IMG/VR virus record: IMGVR_UViG_3300034082_000085
Coordinates: 1-35,488 of that record
Direction: 5' to 3' (one strand)
DNA: 35,488 nucleotides
DNA from: a virus
A program made the position numbers and the translations under genes. This document shows, piece by piece, positions 21,406 to 35,488 of the stretch (its first letter is position 1; each line of letters starts with the position of its first letter). The notes beneath the pieces were generated by a model. That model was not told the origin of the DNA. It did not search any database and saw nothing but the letters and a program-made list of their open reading frames with translations.

Positions 21406-21780
21406 GTGGATTTTGAAAAGTTTTGGATAAATTGGCCCAAAAAGGTCGCAAAGAAAAAAGCTGAAATTGCTTGGAAAAGATTGACTGACCTTGAACAGCG
21501 TGAAGCCTTAGAAGCCTTGCCTAAACACCTTAGACATTGGCAACTTAAACGCACCGAAATAGACTATATTCCATACCCTGCCAGTTGGATAAACGCTGCA
21601 CGATGGGAAGATGTTTTAGACATGACCCCCGCCAAAGAAAAGGTGGACAGGTCGTGGATGTTTAGCCAACAAGGTATTGAGAACAAAGCTCGTGAACTAG
21701 GAATACTTGGTAACGGATACGATAGCTACGAAACCTTAAAAAAGAAATGTATGATGCGAATGGGTATGGAGATTGATTGA
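21406..21780 (+). CDS. Replication-associated protein with DnaT/phage-O C-terminal-like domain
   Basis: The protein has 124 residues from a GTG preceded by AGGGGGAT. It starts DFEKFWINWPKKVAKKKAE, continues AWKRLTDLEQREALEALPKH and has YIPYPASWINAARWEDVL. This FW..WP+K...W..L and P.P.+W+N..RWED pattern is the C-terminal element of many phage replication initiators and helicase-loader-like proteins. Here it stands alone without the usual N-terminal winged-helix domain. It may load or recruit the host helicase, because no phage helicase or polymerase is present. The call rests on motif recall. Confidence 0.75.
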   Translation: MDFEKFWINWPKKVAKKKAEIAWKRLTDLEQREALEALPKHLRHWQLKRTEIDYIPYPASWINAARWEDVLDMTPAKEKVDRSWMFSQQGIENKARELGILGNGYDSYETLKKKCMMRMGMEID

Positions 21781-21952
21781 ACACCAATACAAATGTGCAG
21801 TACGGCAGTTATGCAAATGGCGTAGTCAATGGGGGTTAGCAAAGTTTAGAGAATACCTATCAAAATACCAAATTGATAGTAATTTACTTAAAGGCTACGC
21901 TGACCAATATAGTAAAAAAAACAGAGGTAATTGGGGGGAATGGATTGAATGA
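21773..21952 (+). CDS. Small conserved-type phage protein (59 aa), TTG start
   Basis: The likely start is TTG at 21773, overlapping the previous stop by eight bases; no ATG or GTG is available in this frame. The chain begins LIEHQYKCAVRQLCKWRSQW and ends KKNRGNWGEWIE. The H-Y-C-VR opening and the NRG-WG-W ending match a small phage family I recall near methylase genes. The function is unknown. The stop at 21950-21952 lies inside the starts of two other reading frames, so all three frames are used around 21945-21952. Confidence 0.65.
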   Translation: MIEHQYKCAVRQLCKWRSQWGLAKFREYLSKYQIDSNLLKGYADQYSKKNRGNWGEWIE

Positions 21953-22754
21953 GTTGGCTCTTTTCGCAGGTGCTGGTGGAGGAATACTTGGGGGCAAGTT
22001 GCTTGGATGGAGAACAGTCTGTGCAGTCGAGTGGGAGCCATACCCAGCAAGCGTACTGTGCGCCAGACAAAATGACGGCCTTCTCGAAAGTTTCCCGATT
22101 TGGGATGATGTACAAACCTTTGACGGAAAACCTTGGCGAGGAATTGTTGATGTCGTATCGGGTGGTTTTCCATGCCAAGACATCTCTGCCGCAGGCAAAG
22201 GAGCAGGGATTGACGGAGAGCGGTCAGGAATGTGGAAAGAAATGGCAAGGGTCATTTGCGAAGTACGACCAAAGTTCGTGTTCGTGGAAAACAGCCCAAT
22301 GCTCACTCATAGAGGACTTGACCGAGTTTTCGCAGACTTGGCCAACATGGGGTTCGATGCGGAATGGGGAGTGCTGGGAGCGTCAGACATCGGGGCTAAA
22401 CATCACCGAAAGAGAATTTGGATTGTTGCCCGACAACGAGAAGTTTTTCCATACCCCAACAACAGGCAGTTCAGGGGGCAGCAACAGCAGGAAAGCCATG
22501 CAGAAACGGGGGGTAATATGGCCAACACCGACAACACCATCGGGCGGGGGCAACGCTGGGGGTTCGGGAGCGACAAGAACAGCCAAAGCCAATGGAACTT
22601 ACATACCATCTTCAATCAACCCGAACCTTTACGAGTGGCTGATGGGGTGGCCGCAAGAGTGGACAGACTTAAAGCCCTTGGCAACGGACAAGTACCGCAA
22701 GTGGCTGCTGTTGCATGGCAATTATTAATGGAGAGATTAGATGAAAGAGTATGA
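21945..22754 (+). CDS. DNA (cytosine-5-)-methyltransferase, Dcm-type
   Basis: The protein has 269 residues from TTG at 21945, chosen because GGGGGG sits six bases upstream and the product begins MNELALFAGAGGG like relatives; a frame open to 21873 adds unrelated residues. Motif I is FAGAGG (7-12), motif IV is GGFPCQDIS with catalytic C77, motif VI is VENSP (E115), and motif VIII is AKHHRKRIWIVA. The C-terminal LKALGNGQVPQVAAVAW is motif X. Residues 170-225, where the target-recognition domain lies, are short and unusual. It methylates cytosine in DNA, probably to evade restriction. Almost the whole gene is also read in another frame (21949-22728). Confidence 0.9.
   Translation: MNELALFAGAGGGILGGKLLGWRTVCAVEWEPYPASVLCARQNDGLLESFPIWDDVQTFDGKPWRGIVDVVSGGFPCQDISAAGKGAGIDGERSGMWKEMARVICEVRPKFVFVENSPMLTHRGLDRVFADLANMGFDAEWGVLGASDIGAKHHRKRIWIVARQREVFPYPNNRQFRGQQQQESHAETGGNMANTDNTIGRGQRWGFGSDKNSQSQWNLHTIFNQPEPLRVADGVAARVDRLKALGNGQVPQVAAVAWQLLMERLDERV
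21949..22728 (+). CDS. Nested overlapping gene within the methylase gene
   Basis: The protein has 259 residues in the +1-shifted frame, entirely inside the methylase gene. It is not a random shadow. It contains SSCSWKTAQCSLIEDL, TEFSQTWPTWGSMRNGECW, WPTPTTPSGGG and NPNLYEWLMGWPQEWTDLKP. These match a conserved sequence I recall as the C-terminal half or companion of phage DNA methylases (pattern SSWKTAQ, F..TWPRWG.MR.G..W, WL MG.P.GWTDL). Its start at 21949 shares the G-rich ribosome site with the methylase. It may help target recognition, but its function is not established. Expression is predicted, not shown. Confidence 0.7.
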   Translation: MSWLFSQVLVEEYLGASCLDGEQSVQSSGSHTQQAYCAPDKMTAFSKVSRFGMMYKPLTENLGEELLMSYRVVFHAKTSLPQAKEQGLTESGQECGKKWQGSFAKYDQSSCSWKTAQCSLIEDLTEFSQTWPTWGSMRNGECWERQTSGLNITEREFGLLPDNEKFFHTPTTGSSGGSNSRKAMQKRGVIWPTPTTPSGGGNAGGSGATRTAKANGTYIPSSINPNLYEWLMGWPQEWTDLKPLATDKYRKWLLLHGNY

Positions 22755-35017: not shown

Positions 35018-35488
35018 CACCTTTCGGGCAATATAAAAAAGGACTAGACCTGCTCCACATGGGGCATTACCATTCAGGGTTTCGGCTCTATGAGTTTCGG
35101 TGGCATCCCAAGACTAGGGAAGCATCGGGTGAAAAATGGGATAAATGGGTAAAAGCCCCCAAATGGAATGGTGAACGCCTGTATGGTAAACACATTACTG
35201 TGCAGATGGAACAAGGCTTTGGGGACATTATTCAGTTCTCCCGATTCCTACCATTACTAAAGGCTTGGGGGGCTAAAGAACTATCGGTTATGTGCCATCA
35301 GTCAGTTATGCAACTTTTAGGGCAGATGGATTGTATTGACACCCTTTCGTGTGTGCGTGACGAGGGCAGACCGCTAGAAGCCGATTATTGGGTAGGTAGT
35401 ATGAGTTTGCCCCATTTTGCCCTACACGCCCCCATGTATGTGCGTCAGTCATTCCCTATTAGCCAAGCAAAGATTGTAGGCTCTGAGG
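35014..35488 (+). CDS. Glycosyltransferase-like protein (GT9/TPR-associated), N-terminal part; continues at 1-558
   Basis: The start at 35014 overlaps the previous stop as ATGA. The frame is open to the contig end and joins the frame at base 1. It reads YHSGFRLYEFRWHPKTRE, then GKHITVQMEQGFGDIIQFSR with FLPLLKAWGAKELSVMC. The EQGFGD-IQF-RF-PLL pattern is that of TPR-linked glycosyltransferases of GT9/GT41-like fold, where it contributes to the donor site. The single mismatch between repeats changes Glu (here) to Lys (left copy). The complete product is 297 residues; its acceptor is unknown. Confidence 0.78.
   Translation, partial: MTPFGQYKKGLDLLHMGHYHSGFRLYEFRWHPKTREASGEKWDKWVKAPKWNGERLYGKHITVQMEQGFGDIIQFSRFLPLLKAWGAKELSVMCHQSVMQLLGQMDCIDTLSCVRDEGRPLEADYWVGSMSLPHFALHAPMYVRQSFPISQAKIVGSE
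35350..35488. repeat. Right copy of the contig-end repeat
   Basis: It is identical to bases 1-139 except for G at 35362 against A at 13. It marks circular closure of the assembly. See the left copy for interpretation. Confidence 0.9.

Follow-up and report, generated by a model that had tools for sequence, protein, structure and literature searches.

The gene arrangement closest to the one considered here is that of the EcoHK31I methylase in which, as Lee, Kam and Shaw reportedly found in 1995, a small open reading frame is contained, in a different frame, within the large one, and activity requires both proteins. The small subunit of EcoHK31I has 176 amino acids and the target of the enzyme is YGGCCR; M.AquI, also made of two proteins, has the target CYCGRG. 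In a 2012 account citing the 1995 study (PMC3404938), M.EcoHK31I is described as two polypeptides, the larger carrying motifs I-VIII and X and the smaller motif IX, and it is the larger that is given the predicted recognition domain. For M.AquI, the same account (PMC3404938) has motif IX together with motif X in the small subunit, and the recognition region shared between the subunits.

The locus analysed here lies in a window of 35,488 bases, a virus record taken at its full length, and from the comparison with known methylases it appears best described as working like EcoHK31I. As is said of EcoHK31I, a small frame (frame B) lies within a large one (frame A) and is read in another frame. Unlike in EcoHK31I, frame B opens 4 nucleotides after frame A, its product has 259 amino acids where the EcoHK31I subunit has 176, the gene is phage-borne, and many relatives of B contain several swappable modules. 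The distribution of motifs agrees with that given for M.EcoHK31I in the published description (PMC3404938), with I-VIII and X in A and IX in B; unlike the assignment made there, however, selection at the present locus puts the recognition domain in the nested frame and not in the large subunit. This suggests that in EcoHK31I-like enzymes the recognition domain resides in the small subunit. The locus also resembles M.AquI in that a C5 methylase is divided between two proteins at a point after motif VIII, but motif X of the window is in A and not, as in M.AquI, with motif IX in the small subunit. Three relatives, gp6/gp5 of phage Firecracker and loci L235 and L245 (loci of relatives are numbered in this way), are AquI-like in the placement of motif X, with a long overlap. 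The family phrog_1008 and the paired 'DNA methylase' genes of actinophages are annotated simply as DNA methyltransferase, with a nested recognition role unstated, and M.HaeIII and M.HhaI, which share the catalytic fold of frame A, have the recognition domain and motif IX in their single chain.

Frame A extends on the plus strand from 21945 to 22754, with a TTG start at 21945 and the stop codon at 22752-22754. Frame B is a nested coding sequence in the +1 frame of the same strand (21949-22728, from ATG 21949 to a stop at 22726-22728), and is the proposed target-recognition subunit; it is open in relatives, has a conserved ATG and matches phrog_1008. It is highly probable, judging from sequence comparison, that the pair encodes a two-polypeptide C5 methylase like M.EcoHK31I, in which A is the catalytic and B the nested recognition subunit. 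Computation established two conserved frames, selection on frame B in the recognition stretch, a conserved B start, a frame A product without a recognition domain, and homology of B to a recognition domain with motif IX. Under this reading, frame A would yield a catalytic subunit consisting of motifs I-VIII, a disordered linker and motif X, whereas frame B would yield a recognition subunit consisting of a domain of about 70 residues, one or more recognition modules and motif IX. The two would then assemble into an enzyme of ordinary C5-methylase shape, with B as the small target-reading domain, and the enzyme would probably methylate the phage's own DNA as a protection against host restriction.

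The assignment of frame A to the C5 cytosine methyltransferases is based on a match to Pfam PF00145 (E 8e-33; 114.7 bits against a curated cut-off of 22), a match to phrog_363 (E 9e-69), and a PDB sequence search in which residues 1-167 match M.HaeIII and M.HhaI. The catalytic PCQ, ENx and RxR elements are present, and residues P76, C77, E115, N116, R155 and R157 are invariant in 65 aligned A proteins, the codon of the catalytic cysteine of motif IV (C77) being at 22173-22175 on the plus strand. Invariant positions in this alignment are almost all in motifs I-VIII and near-invariant ones are found again around motif X (VDRLKALGNGQVPQVAAVAW, 22659-22736, plus strand), with almost no conserved positions across the recognition stretch. 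An AlphaFold model of A (pTM 0.76) is confident apart from residues 179-226 and the edges, with pLDDT exceeding 90 over most of 1-165 and over 251-269 and falling under 50 almost throughout 179-226; its C-terminal helix (241-268), to which motif X corresponds, has pLDDT above 90 over the last 19 residues. In a Foldseek search of this model, M.HaeIII and M.HhaI were matched over about 170 columns, representing the catalytic domain only. The disordered 179-226 segment and the restriction of the structural match to the catalytic domain indicate that A is without a recognition domain. The first-pass annotation had placed all C5 motifs in frame A; this is correct for I-VIII and X, but IX belongs to frame B. 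The alignment of 65 proteins, the module identities and the AlphaFold model agree that the recognition domain and motif IX are absent from the A chain, which sets it apart from an ordinary single-chain enzyme.

The product of frame B can be divided into an N-terminal part of about 90 residues, a domain of about 70 residues over motifs VI-VIII, and recognition modules followed by motif IX. The domain over motifs VI-VIII reads SxSWKTxQ...TWPxWGxMRxGECW, with P132, G135 and G140 invariant, and corresponds to a dual-coding segment (B residues 93-160; 22225-22428, plus strand) in which both frames are conserved. The modules, repeats of the form [W/F/L]xTPxx..., occupy 22429-22617 on the same strand, and are supported by frame-B selection, B identity and module swapping. 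After the modules comes the nearly invariant stretch NPxWxEWLMGWPxGWTDLKP, with motif IX (NPNLYEWLMGWPQEWTDLKP) at 22618-22677 on the plus strand.

The identity of these elements is provided by actinophage relatives. In the mycobacteriophage Firecracker, the same region is annotated as two genes, gp6, with motifs I-VIII, and gp5, which is in another frame from gp6 and contains the recognition domain, motif IX and motif X; in phage Estave1, the whole methylase is one in-frame chain. The motif IX of B is thus found in frame with motif X in both. Frame B matches phrog_1008 (E 5e-21), a family also matched by Firecracker gp5 (1e-58) and by the C-terminal half of the Estave1 single chain (9e-50). 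In addition, B aligns with gp5 by hhalign (99.2%, E 1e-19), and gp5 aligns with Estave1 from the recognition domain to motif X (E 2e-20). Together, these alignments and the shared family indicate that EWLMGWP is motif IX and that the preceding modules are the recognition domain; on this sequence evidence, the C-terminal half of B shares homology with the recognition domain and motif IX present in split as well as single-chain methylases of actinophages. With frame B, neither Pfam nor PDB sequence searches gave a match. Pfam likewise left the recognition domain and motif IX of Firecracker gp5 unrecognised and covered Estave1 in its N-terminal part alone; as Pfam is blind to this region, the homology of B rests on hhalign, BLASTP and PHROGs. 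An AlphaFold model of B alone is unusable (pLDDT 56, pTM 0.22), as would be expected, though this is not proof, of a subunit that folds with its partner. In the single-chain methylases of Estave1 and Neville (L259, 923-1498; L261, 926-1504), the +1 frame keeps a SWKT...SETWPxxG domain and a recognition-like module, which may be a remnant of the split form or may represent a further specificity.

Of the two roles that the first-pass annotation offered for B, target recognition and regulation, the former is strengthened by frame-B selection, by the model of A without a recognition domain, and by this homology, and has good support from sequence evidence. That B is a real protein acting as a regulator or partner of the methylase is very improbable: the function of B is deduced from homology and selection, which leaves room for such a role, but what A lacks, a recognition domain with motif IX, is exactly the part of single-chain methylases with which the C-terminal half of B shares homology.

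Selection along the gene was assessed from substitutions in 50 disjoint pairs of relatives, the third codon position of A being the second position of B. At frame A residues 5-68, differences at the three codon positions were 0.076, 0.026 and 0.182, whereas at residues 186-232 the pattern was reversed (0.295, 0.139 and 0.152). The rate of changes that alter A and are silent in B, divided by the rate of changes that are silent in A and alter B, each per opportunity, was 0.12-0.19 in the first third of the gene. The same ratio was 2.74 (95% 2.15-3.64) in the recognition stretch, which indicates frame-B selection there. Substitution rates in the middle of the gene indicate constraint in both frames. 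Selection therefore switches frame along the gene, from A in the first third, to both frames in the middle, to B in the recognition stretch. The finding of a nested coding sequence is to be qualified for the first 90 or so residues of B, where selection in frame B is not seen and conservation is due solely to A.

As an independent test, recognition modules were compared with one another. At 60-70% DNA identity they are 69% identical when read in B and 35% identical when read either in A or in the unused third frame, and B identity exceeds A identity in 552/552 module pairs of this band, the pairs having been chosen by B similarity (a search by A translation yields under half as many similar pairs, 5841 versus 12702). 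The A residues concerned form the linker (residues 179-226; 22479-22622, plus strand), where conservation of A is no higher than that of the third frame. Across the recognition stretch, frame A is nonetheless stop-free in 233 of 238 loci, and the third frame has 1202 stops. This openness indicates that A is translated through the stretch, as a linker of free sequence, to reach motif X. Internal frame A stops do occur in a few loci, for instance in the recognition stretch of L152 and L186, where frame B is intact, and in L145, where frame B is open.

At the start of the methylase, three reading frames meet. A third-frame ORF of 59 amino acids, ORF C (21773-21952, plus strand), ends in a TGA (21950-21952) that overlaps the frame B ATG as ATGA, just within frame A. 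PHROG and Pfam searches with ORF C found no family above threshold. It is a conserved small phage gene with the family consensus AVRQLCKWRxxWGLxxFRxY...GNxGxxGEW, and relatives of it flank the methylase, on one side or the other, in about 35 of the loci of relatives. As ORF C is a real small gene with relatives, three coding frames come together at 21945-21952, bearing out the earlier claim that all three are in use here. A Shine-Dalgarno-like run of six G residues (21933-21938, plus strand) lies 6 nucleotides 5' of TTG 21945 and 10 nucleotides 5' of ATG 21949, and is the predicted ribosome site for both starts; the coordinates and spacings first given for this run, for frames A and B and for the third-frame ORF all proved correct on re-reading. 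In the window, coupling to ORF C through the ATGA may also help translation of B.

All 121 sequences holding that site have the frame B ATG, although elsewhere the A codon from which it arises (AAT) is chosen only about half the time. The start of A lies 4 nucleotides 5' of that of B in 93 of 114 loci; the other 21 have a non-start codon at this position, nearly all with an in-frame upstream ATG available to A. In several loci with an upstream A start, a Shine-Dalgarno-like site is found inside A, 7-8 nucleotides before the B ATG (for instance L028, ATGAACAAGGAGAATTTAAATGAG). A conserved ATG that in several relatives has a separate Shine-Dalgarno-like site speaks for two proteins with independent starts rather than for frameshifting. 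The lack of frame-B constraint over the first 90 or so residues makes an internal B start conceivable, and Met68, with GAGGAA upstream, was considered as a candidate and rejected, as that ATG is found in only 67 of 123 sequences, whereas ATG 21949 is universal.

Programmed frameshifting could in principle yield a single A-B-A chain, with motifs I-VIII from A, the recognition domain and motif IX from B, and motif X from A. Such a chain would have its motifs in the canonical order, which is also the order in which selection changes frame along the gene. However, two programmed shifts are needed, and the conserved ATG of B and the separate Shine-Dalgarno-like site before it, the openness of B from its very start, the dual constraint over motifs VI-VIII, and the openness of A through a recognition stretch that would go unread are all left unexplained. 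In addition, the relatives in Firecracker and Vash are plainly two genes. A frameshifted chain is thus very improbable.

The openness of frame B was compared with chance expectation. With the A protein held fixed and genome codon usage applied, 11.7 frame-B stops are expected and none is observed (P<2e-4; 0/5000 simulations), and 7.9 are expected when the gene's own synonymous codons are shuffled; in the window, 12 stops interrupt the third frame. In 123 distinct relatives, the mean number of frame-B stops is 0.065, against 5.7 expected. A search by frame A alone provides an unbiased test of openness, and among the best 80 viral relatives so found frame B is open in 79, over 228-316 codons. 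The first-pass annotation had held that stops in frame B of homologues at the neutral rate would speak against a nested gene, and this is not what homologues exhibit. The nested frame B is confirmed as open beyond chance. That B is a by-product of the composition and codon usage of A, with no functional protein, is hardly credible, for although the first 90 or so B codons evolve only as A and the apparent conservation of B is in part imposed by the conserved motifs of A, it is contradicted by stop avoidance and by frame-B selection where A is free.

Relatives are numerous. A viral scan gave at least 600 matches, and a scan of bacterial and archaeal genomes gave 211 relatives; in all of the best 80 of these 211, B is read in +1 relative to a methylase, in at least 10 phyla by record title, the scan having been queried with B and so describing layout and not the frequency of methylases without B. 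Two of these 80, L235 and L245, show the Firecracker type of split. Relatives are also found on Leptospira, Nostoc, Pseudomonas and archaeal plasmids, and four E. coli chromosomes carry a relative of a Salmonella phage gene. An E. coli prophage copy (L263, 2501-3262) is flagged as a pseudogene with an internal stop. The design, known but rare, thus has a wide distribution among phages, plasmids and bacterial genomes. In literature searches no earlier description of such a nested methylase gene in phages was found, and, to our knowledge, long conserved dual-coding genes have rarely been documented in DNA phages and bacteria.

The number of PTP-type modules per B is mostly one to four and up to six, and they span 33-203 residues. 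For instance, L189 and L233 are 84% identical over 51 module residues and 33% identical in the preceding domain; conversely, 101 pairs have near-identical preceding domains and unrelated modules. By these sequence comparisons, B modules move between backgrounds. What is new is the breadth of the arrangement, over hundreds of phages and at least 10 phyla, and the evidence for shuffled recognition modules in a nested frame; together with the clean switch of selection between frames, these are the features likely to interest specialists. We see an even chance that this represents a widespread third C5 methylase architecture, in which exchangeable and often multiple recognition modules lie in a frame nested inside the catalytic gene. 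Target choice would then be shuffled between phages as in HsdS, with the catalytic protein unaltered and the same DNA read in its frame as a meaningless linker.

Annotators usually keep one frame, and the recognition subunit is therefore missing from many genome annotations, which explains the database labels 'DNA methyltransferase' or 'hypothetical protein' for either frame. In the public records of L083 (1549-2049), L082 (1501-2229) and L085 (392-652), it is frame B alone that is annotated, as 'DNA-cytosine methyltransferase' or 'hypothetical protein', and frame A is omitted. A prediction of methylation specificity from frame A alone would fail. With the nested methylase it can be tested how one stretch of DNA may carry both the catalytic and the recognition half of an enzyme; there are hundreds of natural versions to study, and the readout is simple, namely which sites are methylated.

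As regards the record as a whole, bases 1-139 recur at 35350-35488 with one mismatch. Given this end repeat, the genome in the record is probably complete and either circular or terminally redundant, though such records may be classed as linear.
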